This document shows positions 15,929 through 30,103 of a DNA stretch of 41,205 nt, in pieces (position 1 is the first letter of the stretch; each line of letters starts with the position of its first letter). The position numbers were made by a program, and so were the translations under genes. This stretch comes from Oscillospiraceae bacterium. Its GTDB lineage: Bacteria; Bacillota; Clostridia; Oscillospirales; CAG-272. The notes below the pieces were generated by a model. The model ran no database searches, was not told the DNA's origin, and saw only the letters and a program-made list of their open reading frames with translations. The DNA is taken from the NCBI GenBank assembly GCA_015064025.1, contig SVSZ01000007.1:1-41205 (forward strand), read 5' to 3'.

Positions 15929-16657
15929 TTACGCTTCTTTTTCCTTGCGCATCAATTCATCCCTTGCAATGAAATCGGGGTGCTTCTTGTAGTAGTTGAC
16001 GTAATAAAGAAGCTGTGCATACTGCTCATCTCTCACGTTCGGCTTGACAGTGGCAAGAAGCTCGTCGAGCTCTGAGAAGGTCGTGAATTTCTCCTCGGTC
16101 AGCGCCTTGAGCGCCCCCTCGTAAACGGAATCCTGCGACGCCCTCTTGTTCGCTTTTTCCGCTCTCTCCTCCTCACGGGCAAAGGACGCCTCCTCTGCCT
16201 TTTCCTCCATATACGCCTCTGCAAGCGCCGTCTGCTCGGCACGGTAAGCTCGATCAAGCTCGGATTGCGATTTTTTCTTCTCACTTTCGATCTCTCCAAC
16301 GCGTCTTGCATAGCCGTTGCGCGCCTCGATATCCGCGCTCTCACTCACACCAAGCCCCGACAGCCCCGCCTGCTCGTTCTCGATCGGAAGATATTTTTTG
16401 AGAAGCTCGTAGTTCACCGCCGCACGGCGCAGCTTTTCCTCGGTCTGCTGTGAAAGCAGCTTGCTCGCCGCACGGTGCTCTGCTTTCGCCGCCTCGTTCG
16501 CCGTGCGGTAATAGTCTATGGGATCCGTGCTCTCTTTTTTGGGGTTACCCAAATTCGATTTCTTGCGCAGAAGCATCCCTCCGCTGTTCTTGTGTGCCGC
16601 CGTAGAGCTCGGCGTTCTCTCCTCGGTCTTCGTACTCGCCTTGTATTTCTGAATCAT
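15929..16657 (-). CDS. Coiled-coil protein of the particle operon, possibly internal virion protein
   Basis: This 242-residue protein is not recognised. Residues about 50-190 are dominated by Ala, Glu, Lys and Arg in a pattern typical of long coiled coils; the last 50 residues (from FTTFSELDELL) look globular. There is no signal peptide or membrane segment. Podoviral ejection proteins sit at this end of the structural module and are similarly helical, so that role is possible but only an inference. The ATG at 16657 has a good AAAGGAG site. The gene overlaps the preceding one by 113 bases in another frame. It is the last gene of the operon. Confidence 0.72.
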   Translation of the reverse strand: MIQKYKASTKTEERTPSSTAAHKNSGGMLLRKKSNLGNPKKESTDPIDYYRTANEAAKAEHRAASKLLSQQTEEKLRRAAVNYELLKKYLPIENEQAGLSGLGVSESADIEARNGYARRVGEIESEKKKSQSELDRAYRAEQTALAEAYMEEKAEEASFAREEERAEKANKRASQDSVYEGALKALTEEKFTTFSELDELLATVKPNVRDEQYAQLLYYVNYYKKHPDFIARDELMRKEKEA

Positions 16658-17525
16658 TTACATTCTCTCCTTTCCTTCTGCTGTTTTCAAACATCCGTAA
16701 AATGTCCGCCTTTTTCGTCATGCGTGCACGGTATTCGTCCGTCACGTAAAGATAGGATTGCTCCATCTTCACCCCGCCCATCAAGAGAAAGATTCCGACC
16801 TGAAATAGCGTCCAGATCAGATCTGCGGGAGAAAAGCTTCCCAAAAGTGAAACTCCGTAATATCCGAAGAGGATTGCCGTGAAAAGCTTTGTCAGAAAAT
16901 CCCGACGGCTGCTCTCACGGGTATATTCGGTCTTGCTCCTTCCGAGATAATACGGGTCATCGGGATTTCCCGTGTCGCTGATAAGAAGCCCCGCAGAGAG
17001 CCTTGTCAGACGAATCGCCGCCGCGCGGCGGAAGCGGATGTGACGCAAAAGCTCCTCGCGACGGGCACGCAGTCCGCCACCTCGTCGCGGCAGGTAAGCA
17101 TAAGGCGTTCCGTCCTCCATAAAGTAATCCGTATAACGCATACCGTGACGGGAGAGATACTGACGTCTTGCGCGCGCCAATGCCTCTCGGTTTTTGATCT
17201 CACACCACTCGTCAAGCTCGTCAAGACAAGGTGCGACACGCTCCGCAATGCGCGCATGCCGTTCGGACGCGATGCAAACACGCGCGTCCCTGTCGCCGTT
17301 GCGAAGTCCCTGCGCATCAAACATGCGATTGATCATAATACCAAGCAGAAAAGCTACCACACCGTCCGCAAGGATCTCACCGATGCCCTTACCCGTCTCT
17401 CCGATCGTAACAAAGGAGGTTGCAATATAAGAGAGGCAAACAAGCCCCACCGAAAGATATCCGATGTAATTGCGCAAAACCTCCTTGATCTTTTCGCTAA
17501 GAGCCAACTGTAAATGATCCTTCAT
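16545..17525 (-). CDS. Four-helix membrane protein of the particle operon, unknown function
   Basis: This 326-residue protein has two predicted membrane segments at each end of its core: about residues 21-41, 47-68, 211-231 and 234-252. Between them is a strongly basic cytoplasmic-type region of about 140 residues with a histidine/arginine-rich SERHARIAERVAP segment. The C-terminal 45 residues are charged and overlap the next gene. It starts in an ATGA overlap with the preceding gene (17522-17525). No family was recognised. Location next to tail genes suggests a virion or host-membrane role such as DNA entry or exclusion; that is speculation. Confidence 0.75.
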   Translation of the reverse strand: MKDHLQLALSEKIKEVLRNYIGYLSVGLVCLSYIATSFVTIGETGKGIGEILADGVVAFLLGIMINRMFDAQGLRNGDRDARVCIASERHARIAERVAPCLDELDEWCEIKNREALARARRQYLSRHGMRYTDYFMEDGTPYAYLPRRGGGLRARREELLRHIRFRRAAAIRLTRLSAGLLISDTGNPDDPYYLGRSKTEYTRESSRRDFLTKLFTAILFGYYGVSLLGSFSPADLIWTLFQVGIFLLMGGVKMEQSYLYVTDEYRARMTKKADILRMFENSRRKGENVNDSEIQGEYEDRGENAELYGGTQEQRRDASAQEIEFG

Positions 17526-17995
17526 ACGGCATTCCTCCCTCCGATGTAGCTCTTCAGCATTTCCTCCACCCTGTCGGCAGTTGCGTCTGCTTGCTTGGCA
17601 AGCTTGATCCTCTCACGCACGCGGCTCGCAAAGGGGGAGAACAGGAACGCGTCCACCGCTTCCCCCGCGATCGCCACCCAGAGAATAAGGGAAAGATCAG
17701 AAAGCACTGCCTCCAGAAGATACACGAACACAAGAGAGATCGCCATCACGCAAAGGCGCGAGGGAAGCTTGATTTTCCCAAGCACCTTCAAAAGCATCAA
17801 AACGGCGATCAGCCCGCCTCCCAAGGAAAGTCGCACAGCACCCCCGGGGACGGAGGTGACGTAGGTCTCCCACTTCACGCAAAAGAGCACGCAAAGCGGC
17901 AGGACCGACGCAAGAAAGCCGCCCACGGTGAGAAAGAAGAGCTTTGCCCGCTCTTTTTTCAGGCTTGTCCCTTTTTCATTCTTCGTCTTCGTCAT
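17522..17995 (-). CDS. Small four-segment membrane protein of the particle operon
   Basis: This 157-residue protein has predicted membrane segments at about residues 18-40, 56-72, 80-98 and 100-118, a basic N-terminus and a helical C-terminal tail. It is not a recognisable holin, although a holin-like role cannot be excluded. The ATG at 17993-17995 was chosen for its GGAGGAGA site; the gene overlaps the upstream gene by 20 bases and the downstream one by 4. That tight overlap argues for co-translation with its neighbours. Confidence 0.75.
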   Translation of the reverse strand: MTKTKNEKGTSLKKERAKLFFLTVGGFLASVLPLCVLFCVKWETYVTSVPGGAVRLSLGGGLIAVLMLLKVLGKIKLPSRLCVMAISLVFVYLLEAVLSDLSLILWVAIAGEAVDAFLFSPFASRVRERIKLAKQADATADRVEEMLKSYIGGRNAV

Positions 17996-18710
17996 CGCAT
18001 CTCTCCTCCACCTCCGCGATCCTTCGCGCCGCTCCGTTCTGCACAAGCTCGCAGGAGTTACTCATCCCAAGGTACACCATTTCCTCGGTCTTCTGCGCCG
18101 ACACCTCTACGTGGTGAAGCGTCGCACCAAGGCGCTCTTCACTCTCCTTGAGAAGTCCTGCGTAGCTTTTTGCGATCTCCTCGAATTTTTCCGTCGCAAG
18201 CCGCGTCTCCTCTCTTGTGCGCGCGATCTCCGCATCGTATTTTTCAAGCCGTTCAAGGAAGAGCTTTTCTCTCTCCTCGGCTCTTGCGTCGTATGCGATC
18301 TTCGCCTCTGTATACGCATCCGCATTCTCCGCCGCCTTTGTAAACGCCCCGCGCGCCTTGAGAAGCGAGCGTATTGCGGGGATCAGCTCCAAAAGCCCCA
18401 CACCGATGATGAGGAGCGTGGAGGTAAGGTTCGGGAGCACCCGCTCCTCAAACCATACCTTCATGGCGTCAAGATCGTAAAAGCTCTCCATGTCCTGCGT
18501 AGGTGTCTCCACGTCACCGATCGGTACCTCCGCAGAGTTCTTCGGTGTCACGCCTTCGGCGGTGGGCGCCTCGCTCACGTATTCACTTACCTCCTCGACA
18601 GTTACCGCCTCGGAAGTGCTTTCCTGCGCTCCTACAGGAATGCAGAAAAGCAGAACCAAAAGGAATGTCGCCACGACGGCAAGAATCTTTCTTCGGTTGT
18701 CAACTCTCAT
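17976..18710 (-). CDS. Secreted or membrane-anchored coiled-coil protein of the particle operon
   Basis: This 244-residue protein begins with a signal-peptide-like segment (RRK, hydrophobic residues 9-25, then VGAQ). A low-complexity Glu/Thr/Val stretch follows to about residue 75. A second hydrophobic segment lies at about 91-113 and a long coiled coil at about 120-215. A signal peptide in a particle operon is unusual; it implies a product placed in or across the cell membrane, not only packed in a capsid. The ATG (18708-18710) has an AAGGAG site 8 bases upstream; the first 11 bases overlap the preceding gene. Function unknown. Confidence 0.75.
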   Translation of the reverse strand: MRVDNRRKILAVVATFLLVLLFCIPVGAQESTSEAVTVEEVSEYVSEAPTAEGVTPKNSAEVPIGDVETPTQDMESFYDLDAMKVWFEERVLPNLTSTLLIIGVGLLELIPAIRSLLKARGAFTKAAENADAYTEAKIAYDARAEEREKLFLERLEKYDAEIARTREETRLATEKFEEIAKSYAGLLKESEERLGATLHHVEVSAQKTEEMVYLGMSNSCELVQNGAARRIAEVEERCDDEDEE

Positions 18711-18939
18711 TGCTTTCGTCTCCTTCCTCCATTCCAAGCACCCGACGCGCCTCACGCTTGCACTGCTCCGCGTAGGCGTTGTACGCCGCAAACTCCTCGG
18801 GCTTTTCCTCCCTCTGACGAAGGAGCGCAAGCTCTGCGTTGATGGAATACTTCTTTCGGATATACTCCGACACCAAGTCGGGATATAATCTTGACTGTGT
18901 ACCGTTTTTCTTTGCAAGCTCGATTTTATAGCTTTCCAT
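18700..18939 (-). CDS. Small charged protein of the particle operon
   Basis: This 79-residue helical, highly charged protein is not recognised. It contains an IRKKYSINAELALLRQ segment and ends in a Glu/Asp/Ser tail. The AAGAGGTGA site 6-8 bases before the ATG supports translation, as does its position 11 bases after the tail-fibre stop with an 11-base overlap onto the next gene. Small proteins of this type behind tail-fibre genes are sometimes chaperones or tail accessory proteins, but nothing in the sequence settles this. Confidence 0.72.
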   Translation of the reverse strand: MESYKIELAKKNGTQSRLYPDLVSEYIRKKYSINAELALLRQREEKPEEFAAYNAYAEQCKREARRVLGMEEGDESNES

Positions 18940-18950
18940 ACCGTCACCTC

Positions 18951-20729
18951 TTATATTTCAAAGATGAATTTTGTAGAAGGCATTGTCCACGCAACGCCGC
19001 TCTGACCGTTGTTTTGTTCATCGAGAGCATAAACGTATTCCTCCGTGTACCGCGGCTCCACGGTGATATACTGACACCCCTCGACGTCAATAAGACCGTC
19101 AGATATGATGTAGTCCGAAATATCGGAAACGACAGCTTCCGCGAGATAAACAAGTCTCATACCCTCATTGCTTAAATACTCACCAAGGCTCTCACCCTCG
19201 GCGATCTCATATTCATACTCATTGACCGCCTTGCTTGTCTGCTTGTAATAGGCTTTTCCGTCCTCAAAGTAAACGTAGTTACCGTCAAGTCCAAATTCGG
19301 CAAGCCTTGACATCACATCACCCGGAAGCTCAAACAGCACCCTTCCCGTGTCCGATACGATGCGCGCGGGATAGTTCGGTAAATAGGTTGAATAGTATTC
19401 CCAAGCGGAATATAGCGCAGCCGCTCCGCGAAGCTCTGCGATCTTCGCATATCTCTGCGACCCGTAAGGCACGACCACCCTTTCATTCGCCCCCTCCATC
19501 ACACCAAAGTCGGACGTAGAAATACCCAATTGCTGTTTCATGTCGGTAATGTCCCAATCATGAATACCAACTCGCGTTTGAAGAAGAGATAAGCGCGCAT
19601 CGTTCAGAAGCCTTTGTTCGACCTCTTCCGTGACAAGCTTCTCAAGGCTTTTCCCGTTAGTATCGATCTCGTAGACTGTAAGCTTTACTCGTATATCTCC
19701 GTGCTCAACCTTCAAGGAGCTTGCACCGTGCGCGTTCAATATCCCATCAAAGGACGTGCCGTCGGCGTTTTTGAGAGGAGACTCGATATCGGTGATCACC
19801 TCGGTGACCACAGGCTCCTTCAATGCAACGATATAGCCCTCATCATAAACCTGCTCGATCACCTTTTCGCCTTCCGACAGAGACAGATCAAGCCACCCTA
19901 CGTGATATCTGCACCCTTGATGGTAGTACATCTTTCCCGCCTCCCAGAAAAGGTAATTTTCGTACTCGCTGTCGGTGTTTTCAAACGGATAAAGCCCGAA
20001 ATGCGCAAGCCCATCAAAAAGTGCGGGATCGATTGTGACCAGTGTGCGCACGCTTCCGTCCTCCTCGCTTCGCACGATCTTCGTAGGGTATTCAAGCTTC
20101 ACACTCAAGTACCCGGAATCGTCCGTGAGAAGGCTGCATTTTCCGTAAAGGCGAAGAAGGCGTGCTTCAAGCAAGGGGTTTGTGGGAAGCGTCACGATGC
20201 TCACCATGCTCTCCCGCTCCTCCTCCTTTGTCGTTTCAATACCGAGACAGTCCGCGATCGCGTAGACCAATTCATTTTCCTTTTTGATGCTTTTGCTTTG
20301 GGCGTCCACTGCCTCCCTTGCGGCAGCCTGTGCATCCTTACAATACGCAAAAGATCCGTCACGTGCCGCAATTGCCGCATCCGATGCGTGCGACGCCTCC
20401 TTGGCCGAATTCTCGGCTTCCTTTGCCGAAGCCGCAGCGGCACCTGCCGAAGCCTCGGCAGCACTGATCGCCTCCTTAAGACTTCCTACCATTTTTTCGT
20501 TCTCGCTCACGCGGCTGTCCAGCTCTTCGAGCGCGGCATTTGCCTCATCCACGATGCGCCCCTGCTCGGAAAGCAAAGAATTTTCCGAGGCGAGCATCGG
20601 GCTCCAAAGCGATCGTCTGATCTCATCGGCGCTCATTCCTGCGGCGCTCGGACTGTCCGGAAGCGCCTGTGCCGAACCACGCAAAAGAGCGTGGCGCAAA
20701 GCCTCGGAGGTTTTTTGTATTTTATTCAC
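18951..20729 (-). CDS. Tail-fibre-like protein with coiled coil and internal duplication
   Basis: This 592-residue protein has an N-terminal region, an Ala/Glu-rich coiled coil (about residues 50-150) typical of trimeric fibre shafts, and a distal part with two related modules at about 214-345 and 453-560. The modules share YP(T/A)(K/R)IV, LA(H/E)FGL, EAGK.YY or EDGKAYY, and a (P/A)VV(T/S) strand. They are likely receptor-facing domains; no enzymatic motif was seen. The start is GTG at 20729 with AAAGGAG; it overlaps the nozzle-gene stop by four bases. The assignment rests on architecture and position. Confidence 0.78.
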   Translation of the reverse strand: MNKIQKTSEALRHALLRGSAQALPDSPSAAGMSADEIRRSLWSPMLASENSLLSEQGRIVDEANAALEELDSRVSENEKMVGSLKEAISAAEASAGAAAASAKEAENSAKEASHASDAAIAARDGSFAYCKDAQAAAREAVDAQSKSIKKENELVYAIADCLGIETTKEEERESMVSIVTLPTNPLLEARLLRLYGKCSLLTDDSGYLSVKLEYPTKIVRSEEDGSVRTLVTIDPALFDGLAHFGLYPFENTDSEYENYLFWEAGKMYYHQGCRYHVGWLDLSLSEGEKVIEQVYDEGYIVALKEPVVTEVITDIESPLKNADGTSFDGILNAHGASSLKVEHGDIRVKLTVYEIDTNGKSLEKLVTEEVEQRLLNDARLSLLQTRVGIHDWDITDMKQQLGISTSDFGVMEGANERVVVPYGSQRYAKIAELRGAAALYSAWEYYSTYLPNYPARIVSDTGRVLFELPGDVMSRLAEFGLDGNYVYFEDGKAYYKQTSKAVNEYEYEIAEGESLGEYLSNEGMRLVYLAEAVVSDISDYIISDGLIDVEGCQYITVEPRYTEEYVYALDEQNNGQSGVAWTMPSTKFIFEI

Positions 20730-23275
20730 AATACCACTCCTTTCTTGAGTTTATTGATCTTGTAGACCGCACCTATACTGTAGACCTCGGTAGGCGCGGC
20801 ACTCTCCGAGGAGAAAAAGAAGCGAATGCTGTGAAAGCCCTTTGCCTTGGCGGTAAGACAAAGGCTTTTGTGGTACCCTCTTTCAAGGCTCAACCCCTCC
20901 AGATCCGCAAGGTTCAGGGAAAGACCGCCGGAAAGGTCCATCGTGATCTCTTCCCGATGCGACTCCGTTTCATATCCGAAAACGACCTTTTCCCCTGCCA
21001 GTCGCTTTGCCGAGAAGATCATGGAAAACAGATCCTTCGTATAAAGGTCGCTGCCAAGATCCAGAAAAGGAGTCTTCCACGTTGCCGTGACGTTTTGATC
21101 GGTGTGAATGCGAAAAATGGGGGTGGTAGGATATATGCGATTTGCGTTCCCCACCTCAACGGGACGAAAATAATTGGCAAGCGGCACATCCACCCCCTCC
21201 TTTGTAAGGCGCACATATACGACCTTTTCCAAAAAATCCTGTTTTCCTATGTAAATGTCCCGTCCGGAAAGCTCTGTATAAAGACAGAGCGACGTTTTCG
21301 TGTTTCCAAGAGCGATCGGGCGCCCACCGCTGCTTGTCGCCAGAGAAAAGCACCCCTTTGTACGGTCAATTTCGCAAATGTAATAGATCCGCCCTTCAGA
21401 AAGCTGCGTACCTCCAAAAAAGGCGGCATATACGGGGAGCCCTTCATATATACGCGCAAGCACTGCCTCCTCGGCATAGATCTTGTTGTGAGCGATCGAA
21501 TGGCATCCCTTCATGATCTCTCCCATGATCCCCGCAGTCAGCGGTGTCATGCGCCGTCCTTCCTGAAGAAAGAAAAGAAGCGAATCCGCATAGGAAAGTG
21601 CGCCGATCGTGTAATGAAATCCGAATTCCCCCGCCGCGCTCGTAAGAAATGAGCGGTCAATGCAACCCTCGTAAAAGCGACAGATCTCTCCCGCCCCGGT
21701 TCCAAACCAGATCTCCTCCCCCACGTGTGAAAAAACGCGCGCGGGAATATGGTCCCAATACCACCACTCATATTCCGCATCCCCCGATTCTCCGTCGCGG
21801 TATCTGTACCTTCTGTCCGCCACGTAGCAGTGATCCCCCACCGCAAGATATAAGCGATCTCCCTGTGTGACGGCAACCGCCTCCGAAAGCCCCTCCTCCG
21901 CGCAAAGGCGCGGTGCCACGGTATGGCTTCTCGCACGCGTGACGCGTGCATTGGAAACAACGTTGTCGGTATATTCGATCCCAAAGACCCCGTTTTTGGA
22001 AAGGATCAAGGGGTCCCCGGCAAGGCTGACGGCAGCATAGGGAGAGACAAGACTCTCACCCGCCCCCGCAGCACAGACGGAAAATACGGGGATCGTTTTT
22101 TTCAAGTCTCCCTCCTCACTGTAAAAGGAGCGGTATTCTCCGCTCATATAGTAAACCGAGGATTCCCGTGTGTGCGGCTCCTTGAAGACGGCAAGCGTGC
22201 TGTCCGACAGCGGTAAAAATCCCGTGATCGCCCGTTCATCTGTTCCGAGGATTGCGGTAAATTGGTCTGGAAAATAGGAAAAATCCTGCCGCTCGGAGAA
22301 AAACACCGTGTTTGGATATTCCGGATTTCCACCAAGGAACAAACGGTCCTGAGCACCGCCGACACCAAACAACGTACCGAAGCCGCACCCATAGATCATG
22401 GACATGCCGCCGTACCCGACGCCGCCGAAAAGATCCTCGGCAGCGGTAAAGCTGACCGTGACGTTCGGTGCATCCCCCACCCCCGCAGTCGCATTGAGCA
22501 GCGAGATTTTTCCCTCGAAGAAGGAAATGCTTCCCGAGAGAGTTCCCTTCTCATTATAAAGCTTTGTTTTGTCCGTTCCGCTGTTTTCATATACGACGTG
22601 ATCTACTCCGGTATCCGAGGCAACGTCCGCCTCCACGGTGACGGCAGTGCCCTGTGAGATCGCACCGTCGAGTAGCCACGTAGCCGCCGAGGCATGTCCG
22701 TAAAGCGTATTTTTGCGTTTCGGTGTCAGAAGATTGACAAGATCGCGCAGCTCTCGCGCACTGTCGGCAGTGTCCGTACACCCGATCCCCACTGTGGTGG
22801 TCGGAATATACGGATCGACCGTGCGTACCTCATAAACACCGCCAAAGCTTCCATAGCGGAGAAAAACACCGCATCCGACAAAATACAGATATCCATTCGA
22901 ATAAAATCCCTGGCAGCGGCGATCCTCAATACCTCCGAGAAGCACTCCAACGGTGTTGCGCGTGGTGATCGGTTCCCGCTCGAAGGTATCGAGTGAGATG
23001 CGGTAAAAATCCGTTCCCGCATAAACGATGAGTTCACGCTCTCCGCTTTCCCTCGTGTATGGGAACATGCCGTTGATGCGCGCCGGAAGTGCATCAACGA
23101 GCTGCTCCCAGCCACGTCTTTTTCGGTTGACACCGTGCCGAGGCTCCCAGTTAACGCCCTCCGTTGCGCGCTTGAGGGATGCATGGATCGGCGAGGAAGC
23201 GAAATCCATACCGGAGAAATCCGATAGCTCCACCCGCCTTTTTTCCTTGACAGACAAATTGGTCCTCGCCCTCAC
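20726..23275 (-). CDS. Large tail protein resembling podoviral nozzle / tubular tail protein
   Basis: This 849-residue protein has the N-terminal pattern of podoviral tail-tube/nozzle and stabilisation proteins. LSDFSGMDF is followed by a segment with GVNWEPRHG and KRRGWEQL, meaning roughly 'gift-wrapped' loading of residues that name the strand order, and then many short Tyr/Gly-rich beta repeats as in propellers. The last 150 residues form a beta domain ending EVYSIGAVYKI. It follows the adaptor gene, where a nozzle gene is expected. The start is uncertain: GTG at 23275 overlaps the adaptor stop; an in-frame TTG lies five codons further in. Confidence 0.75.
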   Translation of the reverse strand: MRARTNLSVKEKRRVELSDFSGMDFASSPIHASLKRATEGVNWEPRHGVNRKRRGWEQLVDALPARINGMFPYTRESGERELIVYAGTDFYRISLDTFEREPITTRNTVGVLLGGIEDRRCQGFYSNGYLYFVGCGVFLRYGSFGGVYEVRTVDPYIPTTTVGIGCTDTADSARELRDLVNLLTPKRKNTLYGHASAATWLLDGAISQGTAVTVEADVASDTGVDHVVYENSGTDKTKLYNEKGTLSGSISFFEGKISLLNATAGVGDAPNVTVSFTAAEDLFGGVGYGGMSMIYGCGFGTLFGVGGAQDRLFLGGNPEYPNTVFFSERQDFSYFPDQFTAILGTDERAITGFLPLSDSTLAVFKEPHTRESSVYYMSGEYRSFYSEEGDLKKTIPVFSVCAAGAGESLVSPYAAVSLAGDPLILSKNGVFGIEYTDNVVSNARVTRARSHTVAPRLCAEEGLSEAVAVTQGDRLYLAVGDHCYVADRRYRYRDGESGDAEYEWWYWDHIPARVFSHVGEEIWFGTGAGEICRFYEGCIDRSFLTSAAGEFGFHYTIGALSYADSLLFFLQEGRRMTPLTAGIMGEIMKGCHSIAHNKIYAEEAVLARIYEGLPVYAAFFGGTQLSEGRIYYICEIDRTKGCFSLATSSGGRPIALGNTKTSLCLYTELSGRDIYIGKQDFLEKVVYVRLTKEGVDVPLANYFRPVEVGNANRIYPTTPIFRIHTDQNVTATWKTPFLDLGSDLYTKDLFSMIFSAKRLAGEKVVFGYETESHREEITMDLSGGLSLNLADLEGLSLERGYHKSLCLTAKAKGFHSIRFFFSSESAAPTEVYSIGAVYKINKLKKGVVL

Positions 23276-23910
23276 ATCATCACCTGCGAATAGACCGTAT
23301 GCACGCGGACGTCTGCGTCCGTCATCCTTTCCTCGGTGTTTTTGACAAGGCGCTCCAATGCCGCCTCATACCAGTTCCGCGCCTCACCCGCCTCGTTCGG
23401 CTCGTCCTCGCGGAAAAGCTCTCCCTTGATAAAATAAGGGATCAGTGCCGCGATCTCCTCGGGAACACCCGCAAGCTCACCCTCGTTCTCCCACGCGGCA
23501 ATGCGGGAGATGCGTGGGCGGTAAAGAAGGATCACCTCTTCCCCCTCGCCAAGCCCCCGCACGGTCAGTACATCTCCCTCGACCGTGAAGGGAAGCTCTC
23601 CCCCATACGTCTCTCCGTCCTCATGGGAGAGACGCACTGCCTCGTAGATCTGCGGAATTTTTGAGAGCTCCATGCGAAAGATCTCTCCCTTTCTTTCCCA
23701 GTCTCCAAAAGCAATGACGTGACGCGAAAGAGGAAGCGCACGGCGCATCTCAAGGTCGCTCAGTGCACGGTTGATCGAGCCGGGCATGGCACGAAGATAT
23801 GCGCCGACCTCCCGATCCCCCTCCATATCCGCGACCTCTGTCGCGTCAAGATCTCCGACAGAGGCGAACATCAGTCGAAGCGCTTCGATCTTGATCTCTC
23901 CGATCTTCAT
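23272..23910 (-). CDS. Phage head-tail adaptor (connector) protein
   Basis: This 212-residue protein begins MKIGEIKIEALRLMF and is mainly helical, with a beta region in the middle carrying DVLTVRGLGEGEEVILLYRP. It has a C-terminal helix that contains EEIAALIPYFIKGELFRED. This layout is typical of adaptor proteins that bind below the portal in podoviruses and some siphoviruses. It lies between the coat gene and the nozzle-like gene, which fits. The ATG at 23910 follows AAAGGGG. A 13-bp hairpin separates it from the coat gene. Confidence 0.82.
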   Translation of the reverse strand: MKIGEIKIEALRLMFASVGDLDATEVADMEGDREVGAYLRAMPGSINRALSDLEMRRALPLSRHVIAFGDWERKGEIFRMELSKIPQIYEAVRLSHEDGETYGGELPFTVEGDVLTVRGLGEGEEVILLYRPRISRIAAWENEGELAGVPEEIAALIPYFIKGELFREDEPNEAGEARNWYEAALERLVKNTEERMTDADVRVHTVYSQVMM

Positions 23911-23930
23911 AGTTTTCCCCTTTCTGAAAC

Positions 23931-23959
23931 GGGGCTGCTTCATTGAATGAAGCAGCCCC
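23931..23959 (-). other. Intercistronic hairpin between coat and adaptor genes
   Basis: A perfect 13-bp stem (GGGGCTGCTTCAT and its complement) with a 3-base loop lies just after the coat stop codon. On the minus strand it is followed by CGTTTCAG, not a U-run. It is more likely a partial terminator or an RNase-blocking stem that raises coat mRNA above downstream tail mRNA. Confidence 0.8.
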
Positions 23960-23967
23960 CAATGGAT

Positions 23968-24831
23968 TTACGCGTACTTGACGTTGATGTTACAGATCTC
24001 GCGGGGGCGAACGATCTGTGCATCATACAGAATAAAGCCCTTGACCGCATCCGCGAACTTCTTTTCGGGTCTGTATGCCTCGGTGTGGGTCAGAGGCTGT
24101 GCAAACGCGATGGCGCGCTTGGTGCGGATCATGATGTTGTCGGTGGCACCCTCGTCGGTCTTTGCCACGTTGTTGGACATCTTGACCGTGACGTTTCCGT
24201 ACTTGGCAACACGTCCGTTCTTAAGGAATTCCGTATTGTCGGTGTCACGTGCGATATAAGCACGCTTGAACAGCGTATAGAAGCGGGGAGATACGGTCAC
24301 GATCACCTCGGTGGAATTCTTGACGTCGTGCTCGTAAAGCTTCTGGATCGCCTCGTCAAGCACGTCGAGCACGTTCTTTCCGTCGGCTCCACTCTCTCCC
24401 GCAATCACCTTGACGGGAGAGGTGTAAAGCGCCTCCACCGCCGCATCGGTGGCAAAGCCCGCGACGTAGGTGTCCACCTCGTCTGCCAGCGCCTCGCTCG
24501 TCTCCTTGGAAAGCGTGTCCATCAGTCCTCCAACCGCCTGCGCACGGTCCACGTCGCCTACCATGTAGTTGAAATAGCTGATCTGCTTGATGTACATGGT
24601 GACAGAGGAATCCTCCAGCTCCTCGGGACCGTCGATGTCTCCCGACGCGCCACTTCTTTCCAGCTTCTTGATGGTAGGCTTGCCCACGCCGAGGATGCGC
24701 ACGCTGTCCCCCTTCTTCTTCACGTCTCCCTCAAACTGGCGATTACAGTCCTCCACAAAGACGTAGGAGCCCTCCAATTCTCTCTGGATCGCCTCGTTCC
24801 AAACGGTGGGAATAAAATTTTCATATGCCAT
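23968..24831 (-). CDS. Major capsid (coat) protein, HK97-fold type
   Basis: This 287-residue protein has the hallmarks of small phage coat proteins. It begins MAYENFIPTVWNEAI, continues with a GDSVRILGVGKPT strand and YFNYMVGDVDRAQA, then a long helical spine region with EALADEVDTYVAGF. It has a VTVSPRFYTLFKRA segment and a C-terminal ITHTEA-like PLTHTEAYRPEKKFADAVKG. It follows the scaffold gene directly, the standard order. No protease is encoded nearby, so assembly would rely on an exchangeable scaffold, as in P22-like phages. Confidence 0.9.
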   Translation of the reverse strand: MAYENFIPTVWNEAIQRELEGSYVFVEDCNRQFEGDVKKKGDSVRILGVGKPTIKKLERSGASGDIDGPEELEDSSVTMYIKQISYFNYMVGDVDRAQAVGGLMDTLSKETSEALADEVDTYVAGFATDAAVEALYTSPVKVIAGESGADGKNVLDVLDEAIQKLYEHDVKNSTEVIVTVSPRFYTLFKRAYIARDTDNTEFLKNGRVAKYGNVTVKMSNNVAKTDEGATDNIMIRTKRAIAFAQPLTHTEAYRPEKKFADAVKGFILYDAQIVRPREICNINVKYA

Positions 24832-24852
24832 AGATTATTTCTCCTTTTCTTT

Positions 24853-25581
24853 TTACCATTTTGTCATACTGTTTCTGATTTTTTCGTAGTTCGCCCTGAC
24901 CTCGGCAGGACTCATGCGGCGCACCTCCTCCGCCGTGTAGGAATCCCCCTCGGCGTGCTTTGCTCCCCCCAGTGCCCCGGGACCTGCGGCACGGTTTGCA
25001 AGCGCCTGCGCAGCAAGGCTTTTCGCCTTCTCGTCAAAGGCGCCGAGAAATTCACGATACCCCTCGTAGATCGTTTTCATGGGAAGATTGCCCACCTTAC
25101 CCTCCGAGAAGGTGCGGAAGCGTTCGTCCTCAATCAGAGCATCAAGATCAACGTCGGGATATGCCGCACGGAAGGCGTCACGGTCACCGCGAAACCACTC
25201 CTCACGCGCAGCCGTTTCCTTTTCCTCCTCTGCCTCACGTTCAAGATATGCACGCTTCATCTCAAGGAAACGTGCCACGTCTGCGCCGTCGCGCAGCTCG
25301 GAGCCGTCGTAAGGATTTTTTCCGTCGAGGGTCTCGATGATCGCACGCTCGCGCGCCTCTCCCAACGCCTTCTCGCGCTCTACCTCTCTTCTGCGCCGCG
25401 CGTTTTCACGGTTGATGCGTGCGACATCCTCGTCCTGTGCCCCCGCATTCTCGGGCGCACCGTCGTTCAGACCGTCGAGATTCTCTCCGACCGTCTCGGA
25501 AGCGACAGTGCCCGCGTCCGCACCGTCCCCCGGCAGACCGATCGCCTCTGCCTCGGTTGTTTTCGCATTGTTTTCTTCCAT
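24853..25581 (-). CDS. Phage scaffolding protein
   Basis: This 242-residue protein is highly charged and helical. An acidic Ala/Gly/Glu N-terminal third leads to a long Arg/Glu coiled-coil stretch (about residues 55-130) and a Lys/Ala-rich C-terminal part ending in a small helix with PAEVRANYEKIRN. It lies between portal and coat genes, where scaffold genes sit. The ATG at 25581 follows AAAGGAA at 8 bases; a TTG two codons upstream is less likely. The assignment rests on composition and position. Confidence 0.83.
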   Translation of the reverse strand: MEENNAKTTEAEAIGLPGDGADAGTVASETVGENLDGLNDGAPENAGAQDEDVARINRENARRRREVEREKALGEARERAIIETLDGKNPYDGSELRDGADVARFLEMKRAYLEREAEEEKETAAREEWFRGDRDAFRAAYPDVDLDALIEDERFRTFSEGKVGNLPMKTIYEGYREFLGAFDEKAKSLAAQALANRAAGPGALGGAKHAEGDSYTAEEVRRMSPAEVRANYEKIRNSMTKW

Positions 25582-25628
25582 TGCCAATTCCTTTCTTTTT
25601 CGGATTTTTCCGCGTTACCTGCGTATTT

Positions 25629-27290
25629 TTATGAAAGCCCGCCATAGGGGATCTCAACGTTTTTTTGTACCGCCTTCTCGCGCTCGATCGCGGCGATGAT
25701 CTCACGACGGTTGGAAAGAGCATCCTTCGGATACAGCTCAAAATAGGTGGTAAGCGAGATCGCGCCGCTCTTCAGTGCCACGTCAAGAGCACTGATGTCT
25801 CCCGCCGCCGAGGAATTGGTGCCGCCCACCGCCTCGACCGTCACCTCCAGCTCTGCCTCACGGAAGGGCGCAGAATCAAAGACGTCATAGCGGTACGTAT
25901 CGCCGCCCTCTCCCGCGGGATAGGGGGTGTCGGTATAATAAAGTCTGAAAAACTGCGCCAGCACCTCCCCCTGCTTCTCCTTGACCTTACAAAAAGCGCG
26001 TCGAAGCTCCTCCACAGGTTGGAGCGCCTGACTTTGCAGCTGTGCGATCGCTGCCCCCGACATACCTGAGCTTAACACCTCGCCCGTCATGACCTCAGAG
26101 GCGCCCGTGACGGTACGCGTCAGCTGTGTCAGTGCCTCCACGATCTGCATGGGGGCTGCGGGAAGAGAATGATCGGAAAGTCGACGAATCCCTCCCCCTC
26201 CCGGTGTGTGATCGGTGAGTACCTGTCCGGGCTCGTTTGTGATGACCTGACCTCTGAGCGCATCCTTCTGCACCACGTATTTCCCCCAGCCGTTTTCCTG
26301 CGCGGAGAGAAGCATCATGGCAAGATTGAAGTTGACGGCTCGCTGATTCGGGATGATGCCCTCCACCTCACCAAGACCGTATATGCACCCCTCTCGGCTC
26401 TCATAGCTTCCAACCACCACAGGGTAAAGCGTTGCGCGCGTGCGCCTCGCCTTCGCTTCCTCCTTTTTTCCTTCCGCTTCCTCGGGCAGAGCCGCGCGTG
26501 CGGGATCCTCCTTATCGAGACTGCGGCGAAAGCGTACGGGGTCGGGCGTGATGGGAAACGGCTCCCCAAGACACACGCTCTTGGTGGCACGCTCGGCAAA
26601 CACCTCGCCGTTTCGTCTGAAATAACGGGTAAGCACTGTCACAAGCCCTTCCCCTTCTGCCTCCGTGTGACCGTAGGGATCGGAAAAGCTGTCCGCTGTG
26701 ACGGCGTCGCGTTCGGACTGCTGTCGACACATCGATCTCACCGTTTCCACACTCTCACGTGTGGCAATAAGGATCCATGCCTGCTTTTGCTCGTCCGTCT
26801 CGGTAGGATCCGAGAAGAATACGTTCAAGGGCTCCAGAAGCTCCCCGCGCAAAGCACCGCCTGCCCGTCCCTTGAGCCCACGGGCATCCTTGTCCCAATA
26901 ATAGTGATAGATGTAGGTTCCCTTCTTGACGGCGCAGTCGATGCCGCGGCGGTCAAGCTCATCCTGCCCGAGCTCCTTCTGAATATATTCGGCAAAGCTG
27001 TTCAGGCGCGCGGTATCCACAGCGCTGTCATAGGAGCGATAAAGGATGCGTTGCGGCGTGGAAAGGATCGCGCTCTTTTTGGAACGGCAGATCATCTTTG
27101 TGAAATTCACCACGGGACGCGGAAGATTCCTCGTATTTTTGGTGGGCGGTGCCCACTGATCCCCCTCATAGAAGCGGACACACAGGGGAAGGATCCTTGA
27201 AAGCCCCTTCGACGACTGATATTCTCTGCCGCGCCGAAACATCCGCCAAAGCTCTGTCACGCGCTCAAGCTCCCTCTCTCGTTCATTCAT
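25629..27290 (-). CDS. Phage portal protein
   Basis: This 553-residue protein is the right size for a podoviral-type portal. Early features are RFYEGDQW and PRPVVNFTK, followed by DELDRRGIDCAVKKGTY. The segment NQRAVNFNLAMMLLSAQENG and the helix region SGMSGAAIAQLQSQALQPVEELRRAF, which I describe here in two parts because of its length, are typical of the portal wing and stem. It forms the dodecameric DNA channel at one capsid vertex. The ATG at 27290 overlaps the previous gene by 8 bases and follows GGAGGG. Confidence 0.87.
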   Translation of the reverse strand: MNERERELERVTELWRMFRRGREYQSSKGLSRILPLCVRFYEGDQWAPPTKNTRNLPRPVVNFTKMICRSKKSAILSTPQRILYRSYDSAVDTARLNSFAEYIQKELGQDELDRRGIDCAVKKGTYIYHYYWDKDARGLKGRAGGALRGELLEPLNVFFSDPTETDEQKQAWILIATRESVETVRSMCRQQSERDAVTADSFSDPYGHTEAEGEGLVTVLTRYFRRNGEVFAERATKSVCLGEPFPITPDPVRFRRSLDKEDPARAALPEEAEGKKEEAKARRTRATLYPVVVGSYESREGCIYGLGEVEGIIPNQRAVNFNLAMMLLSAQENGWGKYVVQKDALRGQVITNEPGQVLTDHTPGGGGIRRLSDHSLPAAPMQIVEALTQLTRTVTGASEVMTGEVLSSGMSGAAIAQLQSQALQPVEELRRAFCKVKEKQGEVLAQFFRLYYTDTPYPAGEGGDTYRYDVFDSAPFREAELEVTVEAVGGTNSSAAGDISALDVALKSGAISLTTYFELYPKDALSNRREIIAAIEREKAVQKNVEIPYGGLS

Positions 27291-27480
27291 TCCGCGCGCC
27301 CTCCTCCCCGTACAGATATTCACTGATCACCTGCGACAGCGGCACCTGCGTGCCTTCTGTGAGCAGCTCCGAAAGCGTCTGCCCACGTCGCTCGATAGAA
27401 GCCTTCAGCGCCTCCACCTCCTCTTCCAGACGCTCAATGCGCGCCCGTGTCGCGAAAAAAAGTCCTTTTCGTTTTTTCAT
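27283..27480 (-). CDS. Small coiled-coil protein between terminase and portal genes
   Basis: This 65-residue protein has a basic N-terminus (MKKRKGLFFATRAR) and a coiled-coil heptad stretch with IERLEEEVEALKAS. It is not recognised. The ATG lies in an ATGA overlap with the terminase stop (27477-27480), with GGGAGG just upstream, and its stop overlaps the portal start. Such tight packing implies a real product; an accessory role in packaging or assembly is possible. Confidence 0.7.
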   Translation of the reverse strand: MKKRKGLFFATRARIERLEEEVEALKASIERRGQTLSELLTEGTQVPLSQVISEYLYGEEGARNE

Positions 27481-29291
27481 TCGTCTCCCTCCCAATTCAT
27501 GTACGACGCGTTCTCACTCGCCGTCTCTCTGTGAAAATACGTTTGTATGAAATCATCTCCCTCCTCCGTCTCCCGCTCCCACGTTCGGTGCGACGAGGCG
27601 GCAATATAATGCGCGATCGCCAGAGCCATGACAAGGTCGTCGTGCTTCCCCGTCACCGCTCCCATCCCCCCCGAGGAAAGACGGGTAAAGGTCAGCATCT
27701 CGCGCAAGGTCTCGGCATCGCACTCGGGGATCTCTCCCTCTCGCATCACGGAAACAAGATTGGCAATGATAAGCGGCTTTGTCCGCTGGGTCGTCTCAAA
27801 ACCTGCGCTTCTTTTTACGCCGCCGCCCTCGCGGTCGTTCCTTTCACGGTAATAAAGGCGCGGATAGCGGTAGGTGCGTTCCAAAAGACGCATGGGATAT
27901 GCCGAATAGTTGATCTCGATACCGATCATGGCATCATTATAATACTTGCCGAGGCAATACATCTGCTCCGCATAAAGATCCTCGTCGATGTGCCGAATGT
28001 GAAGCGTCGCAACGCTCCGTCCGTCAAGATCGCAAATGACCTTTCCCGTAAAGCAGTCGCTTCCCTCACCCGCCGTGTCACCGCCCAGTGAGTAGGGCGC
28101 CCGTTCCGTGATCGCTCCCGCGCCGTTTCGTCGCACACGCGGCTCCTCGTAAAGAAGAATGTAACCCGCGGGCGACTCGCAAAAGGCGATGTCCTCAATG
28201 GAAAGCTCCGTATCGATCACCTCGCCGTCGGTGCCGAGGAGATCCTTGCATCGGCGTCGGTAGGTAAAGTAGCCGCGGCGCGGAACGGGAGTGCGGTCCC
28301 GTTGCATCAGCGCCGCAGTCAGGCGCTCCTTGTCAAAGACGCACTCACCGCCCGAAACAAACGCCTCCTCGGGCGTGCAGGGATATTCCTGACGAATGGT
28401 GCTCTTATCAAGATAAGAGGCGTACTTACGGCAATACCAGGCGATCTGCTCCTCCTCAAGCCCACGCGAGCGCAAAAGCGCAATGCGAGAAAGGAGCCAC
28501 GGATCCCGCGTTTCAAGATAGGAAAGATCACGGCATCGGTATTCCGACGTCCGCCACCATTCGTAAAAAAGATTGTGGCAGGCACCGCTTCTCCAAAGCT
28601 CCTCCGACTCCCCAAGCCCGTTAGCCGTCGTTTCATAGATGCAGATCGCATCCTCTGTCAGCGCCTCTCCGATTCCCTTTTGCAATTCCGCCAAGGGGCA
28701 GTCGTAAAAGGCGACCTCCGAAAAATGCACGAAATTCAACGTGCGTGAACGTCCCGCGTTTCCCGTGGCGGTGGAAACACGCCATGAGGAATTGAGGACA
28801 TCAAAGTAAAATTCCTTTTTGGAGCTAAAGCGCTCCGTAGGAAGAAGCGCTTTGGGAAGCCGATCGTACACCGCGCGTGCACGATCGTTGAAAATGGCGA
28901 GCGCATTGTCCGATGTATCCGCAAGCGTCATCCCCGAAAAGTTTTTTCGCACGATCGCGAAGGAAAGCTGCATTGCCGTGATCAGAGAGGTAAATCCCTG
29001 CTGACGCCCCTTGAGAATATAGTAGGGGCGTCCCGTGCCAAGGCGCTCAAAACGGGAAATGAAATCTCTTTGCACCTCGTTGAAAAAGAAGGGCACGGTG
29101 GCTTTTTTCTTGTCCACGATCAGAAATACCGCCTCAATGAGCAGATAGGGGCGCTCCAGAATCTCCCGCCGCATCCCGGCGTCCGACATGATGCATTCCA
29201 CCGCCGCCGCACAAAGGCGGCGATCGTATGAAAGATCGTGCCTCTCCTCCCACCGCACCCGCCTTTTTTCAATCATCTGTGCAACCGTCAA
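27477..29291 (-). CDS. terL: Terminase large subunit (packaging ATPase and nuclease)
   Basis: This 604-residue protein drives DNA into the capsid and cuts it. The ATPase half has the Walker A-like LKGRQQGFTSL (residues 93-103), a Walker B region NFVHFSEVAF (186-195) with catalytic Glu192, and the coupling motif YETTANG (219-225). The nuclease half shows the RNase H-fold acidic residues Asp405 in GGDTAGEG, Glu459 in IGIEINYS, and Asp551/Asp552 in KHDDLVMALA. All catalytic residues are kept, so packaging ability appears intact. The start is a TTG at 29291 behind GGGGAAG; an ATG lies five codons downstream. Confidence 0.93.
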   Translation of the reverse strand: MTVAQMIEKRRVRWEERHDLSYDRRLCAAAVECIMSDAGMRREILERPYLLIEAVFLIVDKKKATVPFFFNEVQRDFISRFERLGTGRPYYILKGRQQGFTSLITAMQLSFAIVRKNFSGMTLADTSDNALAIFNDRARAVYDRLPKALLPTERFSSKKEFYFDVLNSSWRVSTATGNAGRSRTLNFVHFSEVAFYDCPLAELQKGIGEALTEDAICIYETTANGLGESEELWRSGACHNLFYEWWRTSEYRCRDLSYLETRDPWLLSRIALLRSRGLEEEQIAWYCRKYASYLDKSTIRQEYPCTPEEAFVSGGECVFDKERLTAALMQRDRTPVPRRGYFTYRRRCKDLLGTDGEVIDTELSIEDIAFCESPAGYILLYEEPRVRRNGAGAITERAPYSLGGDTAGEGSDCFTGKVICDLDGRSVATLHIRHIDEDLYAEQMYCLGKYYNDAMIGIEINYSAYPMRLLERTYRYPRLYYRERNDREGGGVKRSAGFETTQRTKPLIIANLVSVMREGEIPECDAETLREMLTFTRLSSGGMGAVTGKHDDLVMALAIAHYIAASSHRTWERETEEGDDFIQTYFHRETASENASYMNWEGDE

Positions 29292-29308
29292 GACACTTCC
29301 CCATTTCT

Positions 29309-29668
29309 CTACAGCTCCTCAAACCTACATACAGGGGATCCCTCCCCGGCACCCGTCTCCATACCCTCCCCACGCAAAAAGGCTTCCTTTTCGCAAAGTA
29401 GACCTATGATCGAAACGAGTTTTGAAAGATCCTCGCAACGAACCCCCTCGATGCGTGACAATAGCTCCCGCCGCCCCTTTTCGCTCATTCCTTCCGCCAC
29501 AGCGCAATCCTGCGCAAGAGAAAGAAGCGCATCGATCTCATCCTCGTGCAAAAGCGCCCGCTCAAGCCTTTTTACAAGCAATCTTTGCGAAAGACTGACC
29601 GCGCGTAACAGCCGCTTGCGCGAGCTTCCGTCAGTGCTCTCCGTTCCCGAAGCTTTTCGTTTTTTCAA
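29309..29668 (-). CDS. Probable terminase small subunit
   Basis: This 119-residue protein is basic at its N-terminus and helical throughout, with no recognised domain. It lies 17 bases before the large terminase, the standard place for the small subunit that binds DNA and starts packaging. The start is a TTG at 29668 with a strong AGGAGG site. No clear helix-turn-helix was identified by eye, so the call rests on position and size. Confidence 0.65.
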   Translation of the reverse strand: MKKRKASGTESTDGSSRKRLLRAVSLSQRLLVKRLERALLHEDEIDALLSLAQDCAVAEGMSEKGRRELLSRIEGVRCEDLSKLVSIIGLLCEKEAFLRGEGMETGAGEGSPVCRFEEL

Positions 29669-29698
29669 AGTATATTCCTCCTATAGCGCACACCTCCC

Positions 29699-29890
29699 TC
29701 ACGCCGACACCTCAAACGCCGCCTCCTGCATGCAATCCTCGCAAAGAACACCTTCCTCCAGCTCATACGCAGTCTCTCCCACGTAAATGGGACGTCCGCA
29801 AACAAGACAGTAATACGGTGCCTCGCTCCCGTGCATATTTTCGGGACACAGGTCGGGGCATCGGATCTTACCGCAAACCTCGCACATACA
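29699..29890 (-). CDS. Small zinc-ribbon protein, first gene of the particle operon
   Basis: This 63-residue protein carries three cysteine pairs of zinc-knuckle type: CEVC near the N-terminus, CLVC in the middle and CEDC near the end. CPDLC adds two further cysteines. It resembles small treble-clef/zinc-ribbon proteins found in phage and prophage. As promoter-proximal gene it could be a transcription or packaging factor; no partner can be named. The ATG at 29888-29890 was chosen because the AAGGAG site is 8 bases away, while the ATG five codons upstream is too close to it. Confidence 0.78.
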   Translation of the reverse strand, partial: CMCEVCGKIRCPDLCPENMHGSEAPYYCLVCGRPIYVGETAYELEEGVLCEDCMQEAAFEVSA

Positions 29891-29908
29891 CATCACTCCT
29901 TCCATTTC

Positions 29909-30103
29909 TTTTTTACGTAATCATACGTATTAAAATTGAGCATACCGAGAAAAGGCACTCCTTTGAGCTGCGCATTTCCAATTCTCTTGCCTTTTCTCTC
30001 ACGCTCAGTCGAATTACGTTTTTACGTTTATCTTGTCCCAATTATACCACATTTTTACGTAAATGTCAAGAAAAATATATGCATATTTTGCGTATTTACG
30101 AAA
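29909..30103. promoter_or_regulatory. Iterated TTTACGTAAA-like sites around the particle-operon promoter
   Basis: Sites seen: TTACGTAA (29913-29920), ATACGTAT (29923-29930), TTACGTT (30014-30020 and 30022-30028), the perfect palindrome TTTACGTAAA (30054-30063) and a TTTACGAAA variant (30095-30103). One copy lies within the promoter spacer and others flank the start of transcription. Two palindromes are 10 bp apart centre to centre, one helical turn. This is what an operator array for a dimeric repressor would look like. Confidence 0.75.
30041..30069 (-). promoter_or_regulatory. sigma-A promoter of the particle operon
   Basis: On the minus strand: perfect -35 TTGACA (30064-30069), 17-base spacer, perfect -10 TATAAT (30041-30046). 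The spacer contains the TTTACGTAAA palindrome. The 5' UTR to the first gene would be about 140 bases. Confidence 0.93.

Follow-up and report, generated by a model that had tools for sequence, protein, structure and literature searches.

A stand-alone podovirus-like particle operon in an Oscillospiraceae genome: a candidate gene transfer agent-like conversion of a temperate phage late module

How should an intact operon for a podovirus-like particle be read when it lies among ordinary chromosomal genes and no gene for lysogeny, replication or lysis can be recognised with it? This question is raised by contig SVSZ01000007.1 of an Oscillospiraceae bacterium (assembly GCA_015064025.1), whose full 41,205 nt are called the window here and represent the entire contig C45 of G000, a 2.16-Mb metagenome-assembled genome (MAG) that is 80% complete. 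An initial annotation, based on the sequence alone, described fifteen intact leftward genes running in about 14 kb from a single promoter, and considered a gene transfer agent (GTA)-like or otherwise domesticated particle, a reduced prophage or a helper-dependent satellite. Its description of the operon holds: fifteen minus-strand open reading frames (ORFs) extend from 29905 to 15929, all of them open, 13,833 of the 13,977 nt (99%) are coding, and one consensus promoter precedes them. The operon has the content of a GTA, with head and packaging genes and with no replication, integration or lysogeny genes of its own in the contig. With moderate confidence, it is read here as a GTA-like conversion of the late module of a temperate P22-like podovirus of about 40 kb, fixed in the chromosome of one species. 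This conversion is considered independent, the operon not being the inherited GTA-like cluster of the genus described below.

Phage relatives and the losses in TerS and portal

Database searches with TerL, one of the proteins proposed for this purpose in the initial annotation, lead to temperate P22-like podoviruses in IMG/VR and in genomes of the same family. TerL relatives occur at ten IMG/VR loci, six with 57-59% identity and four with 27-43%. In G035 (42.0 kb) and G036 (40.5 kb; probably a circularly permuted record, judging from its gene order), the late genes are arranged as in the window, behind recombinase-, repressor- and early-type genes (assigned by eye) and before a gene for about 3,050 aa. 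This giant protein contains an ART-PolyVal domain in G035 (first 3,000 aa scanned), while in G016 it is encoded by one open ORF of 3,055 aa with an LPD3 domain in the C-terminal 2,110 aa. The P22-type portal and the shared order with P22-like phages bear out the podoviral architecture proposed earlier. Compared with these phages, the window operon is without the early half, the recombinase, the giant gene and a gene of about 107 aa between coat and adaptor, the last of which is also not recognised in several phages. The order of the late module is a prophage feature, and the other prophage features, i.e. recombinase, repressor, replication genes and att sites, are absent from the contig: the ORF list, PHROGs, Pfam and a relic search yielded none of these genes, and no convincing flanking direct repeats were present among the repeat families listed (20 of 32).

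PHROGs and Pfam scans were run on all fifteen operon proteins. TerL (27477-29291, minus strand as all genes of the operon; 604 aa) matches phrog_2 (5.8e-19), and its active-site columns agree with those of seven relatives, in which they are invariant. The catalytic residues are thus kept, as initially noted, in the columns of the Walker-type and nuclease motifs. The TerS (29309-29668; 119 aa, with a TTG start behind AGGAGGA) has no informative family match and was identified by position and phage homology. Only 28 residues precede its conserved core, compared to 75-106 residues in 15 phage-type TerS proteins. This N-terminal region gave Pfam matches of helix-turn-helix (HTH) type in all seven phage-type TerS proteins scanned (best E 3.7e-8 to 0.0035; three above the curated Pfam cut-off and four weak), and no such match was obtained for the TerS of the window, of G276 or of one seven-gene cluster. 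The window TerS therefore appears to lack the domain for pac-site recognition, a feature of GTAs, which would be expected to make packaging less selective.

The P22-type portal (25629-27323; 553-564 aa; PF16510, 2.3e-16), which is separated from the scaffold gene by 41 nt, lacks a C-terminal tail of about 100 aa. It stops 29 residues past residue 535, whereas all 12 elements that carry phage genes (the giant in 11 and, in G325a, early-type genes assigned by eye) continue for 101-147 residues beyond this point. These phage tails are mostly glutamine-rich and helix-like. Tails of 18-43 aa are otherwise restricted to stand-alone clusters, namely ten loci of genus g28 and five seven-gene loci (5/30 checked). 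A general rule that stand-alone clusters have short portal tails was rejected, as four g28 clusters with host-like upstream genes keep a long tail. The TerS and portal traits co-vary: all 15 TerS proteins with a long N-terminus pair with portal tails of 101-147 aa, and short TerS N-termini occur in the window, with its tail of 29 aa, and in the near-identical G276 and G325b (34 residues before the core), with tails of 72 aa. In phage P22, portal residues 603-725 form a C-terminal helical barrel, according to one study (PMC5290284), and the ejection proteins cluster around this barrel, as stated in another (PMC4992974). By analogy, the tail of the phage portals in the window lineage may correspond to the P22 barrel, and its loss would go together with the loss of an injected giant protein.

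Together, the losses of the TerS N-terminus, the portal tail, the early genes and the giant next to an intact TerL support the GTA-like idea. In such a conversion, a scaffolded procapsid would be produced from the one promoter. TerL and a TerS blind to the pac site could then fill it non-selectively with host DNA, for which FpGTA of Faecalibacterium, introduced below, offers a precedent. The adaptor, the 849-aa protein and the fibre would close and equip the particle, and ejection proteins would no longer be delivered in the absence of the portal tail and the giant. For lysis and induction, the particle would depend on the host or on unlinked genes, as reported for FpGTA.

No lysis gene is recognisable in the operon by PHROGs or Pfam, and the earlier statement that an endolysin is missing should be read in this sense, given that the genes at 16545-18710 encode hydrophobic stretches with no recognised role; the last gene of the operon also has a weak spanin match (PHROGs, 0.16). 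Packaging and virion genes without recognisable replication or lysis genes would also be expected for a capsid-encoding satellite that obtains replication, induction and lysis from a helper phage. In addition to capsid genes, capsid-forming phage satellites of the PICI-like type have an integrase, a regulator and replication genes of their own. None of the latter is present in the operon, nor is a repressor or a primase, and the missing HTH region of TerS speaks against the selective packaging of satellite DNA. Furthermore, the assembled genome, at 80% completeness, contains a single copy of this TerL and no related helper prophage was seen (other helpers were not searched for). A satellite is accordingly regarded as very improbable.

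The window makes up an entire contig of a MAG, and an error of assembly or binning that joined a piece of phage DNA to the chromosome also has to be weighed. Both flanks are host-like, in agreement with the initial view of ordinary chromosomal surroundings: to the left lie a Mem_trans permease and a polysaccharide deacetylase (both Pfam), and the right flank holds RecA (phrog_97, 3.4e-86), a gene judged RecX-like from its position and repeat proteins that resemble BspA by eye. The GC content per kb varies between 0.47 and 0.60 along the contig with no step at the operon. The domain-precise losses are, in addition, atypical of assembly errors, and an artefact is given hardly any weight. The permease and recA neighbourhoods are rearranged in the genomes of the genus that were fetched, and no empty site could be read from them.

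Stand-alone clusters in genus g28 and in the genus of the window

The same lineage was encountered in genus g28, where the family search identified window-type TerL in 15 genomes. In eight species (loci L351-L352, L354-L355 and L358-L370), a stand-alone five-gene cluster with the order TerL, 52-aa protein, portal, scaffold and coat lies beside the same methionine-synthesis-like genes. The coat was seen in seven of the eight species, the stretch of G128 ending before it. The other side was reached in six loci: five have noc- and parB-like genes, four of which also have a called soj-like gene, and G351 has a noc-like gene; G398b displays the noc/parB side only, and all of these neighbours were named by eye. 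Neither a TerS nor an adaptor or tail gene was recognised in the five-gene cluster, and its portal tails comprise 22-43 aa. Median dN/dS values among pairs with finite dS were 0.08 for the coat (21/21 pairs), 0.11 for both TerL and portal (6/28 pairs each) and 0.36 for the scaffold (14/28), compared to 0.05-0.06 for two neighbouring host genes; dS mostly exceeds 1 in the best pairs shown, so that these values are rough. The g28 cluster is under purifying selection, and its synteny suggests that this locus, termed locus A, is inherited. Apparent stops inside some g28 TerL genes were dismissed, since in ten stand-alone copies inspected (G373 and G380 left out) the stops shown precede the coding stretch.

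Seven further g28 clusters have genes that appear host-like by eye before TerS; several of these stretches stop at contig ends, and the view covers their upstream side. They comprise the four long-tailed clusters mentioned above (G248a, G248b, G398a and G409a), G276 and G325b, likewise described above, and G404, with a 74-aa portal tail and an ambiguous first gene.

A different picture emerged within the genus of the window, which was sampled with one genome per species. A search with the window coat detected a distinct cluster of about 7 kb in 30 of the 34 other genomes, consisting of TerS, TerL, a nozzle-like protein, portal, scaffold, coat and adaptor in this order (e.g. L070:1543-8504, L078:12320-19413 and L113:3408-10360). 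All seven genes are called at 21 of the 30 loci; a contig end truncates seven others, and at two no scaffold was called. With the partial clusters of G032 (TerL) and G025 (TerS to portal), 32 of 34 genomes contain it wholly or partly, and G021 retains the promoter and an adaptor fragment. Nothing was found in G010 or in G000, for which absence is not proven at 80% completeness. For 20 genomes, the cluster tree shares 12 of 17 splits with the rpoB tree (random labels: mean 0.29 and maximum 3 in 2,000 shuffles), it recovers 10 of the 12 rpoB splits that have good support, and no strongly supported pair conflicts. The dN/dS values lie between 0.06 and 0.41 in seven pairs, many of them with dS above 1. 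The cluster is located at recX-recA in seven species and at another shared place in six. Across the family, its TerL profile matches 231 of 395 genomes (E<=1e-60), the lower-scoring part of which includes other small clusters or phages, and a scan with 543 relatives placed all seven genes at 57 of the best 80 named loci. Inheritance in the host lineage, as expected of a GTA, is therefore found for the seven-gene cluster, which is by itself a strong candidate for a GTA-like element. As a side observation, G020 (C107, C52) yielded two full rpoB matches, one of which scores like that of G022, and may represent a contaminated bin.

Most seven-gene clusters are preceded by three to four TGGCAC repeats with a period of about 10, followed by a -10-like box. 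With a strict form of this pattern, 23 of 35 genomes yielded 32 sites in all and the reversed control none; the 12 genomes without a strict match include some that carry the cluster. Twenty sites precede the cluster, one the remnant in G021 and 11 other genes, for five representatives of which domain scores were obtained, the rest being assigned by similarity. Three of these 11 sites lie before barnase-barstar pairs (G001, G020 and G033), and at another three (G014 twice, G018) barstar follows at a distance of 0.6-1.0 kb with no barnase called; the loci concerned are L297 (motif at 1516), L309, L312, L300, L299 and L308. A ribonuclease and its inhibitor apparently belong to the same regulon as the seven-gene cluster. 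A DUF6291-type gene, which may regulate the regulon or act as one of its effectors, lies behind the five remaining sites, two in G016, one in G017 and two in G018 (L301, L303, L305, L306 and L307). In some other genera (L199, L203, L210 and L215), LexA-like boxes of the form GAAC-N4-GTTC were noticed by eye upstream of TerS instead of TGGCAC, which suggests that control of the cluster has been swapped there.

Ancestry, distribution and control of the window operon

Two more results were counted in favour of an independent conversion: the presence of the same lineage at a fixed locus in eight g28 species, and the failure to find the genus cluster in G000. Several observations weigh against it. 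The initial annotation had associated scattered presence with a recent or dying prophage, and a patchy distribution is what was observed: within the genus, window TerL is found in 2 of 35 genomes, the window itself and a prophage-like element in G016, and window-type TerL (E<=1e-60) is found in 32 of 395 sampled genomes and 11 of 71 genera of the family. The stand-alone operon is limited to 1 of 35 genomes, that of the window's species, and the proposed synteny comparison retrieved the same locus in no relative. As no synteny is shared with other genomes, selection on the window copy is not measurable. In a phylogeny built on the TerL, portal and coat proteins of 30 elements, the window nests among temperate phages (support 1.0), in a group with G312, G016, G035, G251 and G036 (support 0.96), and not with the g28 clade. 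The operon also retains a full, phage-like set of tail and fibre genes. The g28 clusters G248a, G248b, G398a and G409a keep both a long TerS N-terminus and a long portal tail despite host-like upstream genes, hence being stand-alone does not by itself predict the losses. Regarding the missing genus cluster, G000 is incomplete and the strict promoter pattern is also missing in 11 other genomes of the genus. Finally, inheritance in the host lineage, as judged by conservation, congruence and synteny, was not found for the window operon, and it is for this reason not filed as a GTA. The suggestion of a GTA-like particle thus stands with respect to the losses in TerS, portal, early genes and giant beside an intact TerL, and is weakened by the distribution.

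Several of these observations would suit the chief rival explanation, a defective prophage remnant without a selected function in which the early arm, the recombinase and the giant were deleted and the rest has not yet decayed. Nesting among temperate phages, the patchy TerL and the complete tail and fibre genes are all in its favour. On the other hand, TerS and portal were each trimmed by a precise domain, and none of the fifteen ORFs is interrupted. Searches for leftovers of the early genes and the giant beside the operon found none (the best match, E 0.003, is to a 58-aa ORF), and the missing ends of TerS and portal were not recovered from other reading frames in the vicinity (best E 0.016). 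In g28, moreover, purifying selection acts on stand-alone clusters of this lineage. A remnant is kept as a real possibility, albeit not the one that is held to be probable.

The promoter also bears on this choice. It lies at 30069-30041 on the minus strand and matches the consensus TTGACA-17-TATAAT at 12 of 12 positions with a TG extension, in line with the single promoter described initially; overall, 12 promoter-like sites were observed in the 15.5 kb scanned, compared to 7.3 expected. Two related phages have a switch promoter with a similar core, as might be expected of a remnant; this similarity is weak evidence, consensus promoters being alike. The spacer contains the palindrome TTTACGTAAA. 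A genomic regulon based on the operator TTACGTAAAAA was tried and rejected, with six sites against ten in the reversed control. Two null results count further against a GTA-like conversion: no LexA box above chance was found for the operon, and the GTA-type TGGCAC repeat motif has no site in the window or in G000. With regard to host control, the promoter was observed to be of the consensus type and to have palindromes, while the operon encodes no repressor and no shared regulon was found.

The remaining genes of the operon were compared with those of phages. The first gene (29699-29905) encodes a 68-aa zinc-ribbon protein (DUF4428, 8.2e-5, below the Pfam cut-off) with no counterpart in six phage or prophage contigs compared (best E 0.78), and is situated directly upstream of the TerS without HTH-type region. 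A 70-aa protein between TerL and portal (27283-27495) has a homologue of 39% identity in G035. The scaffold protein (24853-25587), which has no informative family match and was assigned by position and phage homology, is 41-44% identical to phage relatives, the major coat protein (23968-24831; 287 aa; phrog_267, 1.1e-35) 62-72% and the head-tail adaptor (23272-23943; weak match to phrog_13046, 0.002) 38-42%. They are followed by the 849-aa tail or stabiliser (nozzle-like) protein (20726-23275; phrog_3287, 1.6e-26) and a fibre-like protein (18951-20729), which has weak matches to tail proteins (PHROGs, 0.001) and phage homology at its N-terminus. In G035, a reverse-transcriptase gene (L023:4653-7138; RVT_1, 5.5e-17) adjoins a 366-aa gene located after the fibre; G035 and G251 seem to carry a diversity-generating retroelement here, which is absent from the window. 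Downstream of the fibre, proteins of 79 aa (18700-18939; 36-55% identical in some phages), 244 aa (17976-18710; two hydrophobic stretches), about 157 aa (17522-18001; four hydrophobic stretches) and 326 aa (16545-17525; with hydrophobic stretches, 32-53% in phages) are encoded. The last gene (15929-16657) specifies 215-242 aa. Its recognised phage homologues comprise 316-735 aa, and unlabelled ORFs in the last-gene position of five phages comprise 209-284 aa; the idea that this gene is shortened does not fit these positional counterparts and was dropped. The giant gene that follows it in phages is absent from the window.

Implications and relation to known systems

GTAs are known from few lineages, and the route from phage to GTA is an open question. 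A more far-reaching interpretation, which is put forward tentatively and is less likely than not, is that the window operon represents a freshly and independently domesticated podovirus-like GTA replacing the seven-gene cluster of its genus. The family would then hold replicate podovirus conversions, i.e. the seven-gene cluster, the five-gene locus of g28 at noc-parAB, the window, and G276/G325b, which would have repeated the same losses: the pac-recognising domain of TerS or the whole TerS, the portal tail, and the early genes or the giant. Complete temperate phages, trimmed stand-alone operons and inherited minimal clusters, as stages of this process, occur together in this one family, and any genome can be screened for the two domain losses, in TerS and in the portal. 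Provided that the particles do package DNA of the host, they would constitute a widespread vehicle of gene exchange in uncultured gut Clostridia.

Among known systems, the temperate P22-like podoviruses of about 40 kb (G035 and G036, as well as the prophage-like G016, G251 and G312) share the gene order of the window, with 56-58% identity in TerL and 62-72% in the coat. They differ in having early genes, a giant of about 3,000 aa, a TerS with a long N-terminus and a long-tailed portal; a recombinase and a repressor were recognised in G035, G036 and G251. The seven-gene cluster resembles the window in being stand-alone, in its coat (32-42% identity), portal (26%) and homologous scaffold, and in the short portal tail of 5 of the 30 loci checked. 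It differs in a TerL that the window TerL does not match, in being inherited with the host, in its TGGCAC-repeat promoter and in the absence of fibre and membrane genes from the cluster. The GTAs of Alphaproteobacteria, RcGTA among them, consist of a head and packaging cluster without replication genes, package DNA non-selectively, are siphovirus-like and are conserved across hosts. Going by these general features, the window shares with RcGTA a head and packaging cluster devoid of replication genes, whereas RcGTA is siphovirus-like and conserved across its hosts.

The initial annotation regarded a podovirus-like GTA as undescribed. This has to be narrowed: FpGTA I of Faecalibacterium, a podovirus-like GTA-like element, was published in January 2026 (PMC12946183). 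In the titles and abstract openings of the GTA literature searched, which covered few preprints and no subscription journals, no other podovirus-like GTA was found. For FpGTA, a possible TerS is reported without any obvious DNA-binding domain, the 40-nm particles carry about 9 kb of DNA, and a second operon holds further structural and lysis genes (PMC12946183). Set beside this description, the window operon is a one-off, is longer (15 genes, 14 kb) and has its own fibre, while both are stand-alone podovirus-like packaging and head operons of gut Clostridia that have portal, scaffold and coat genes and no replication genes.

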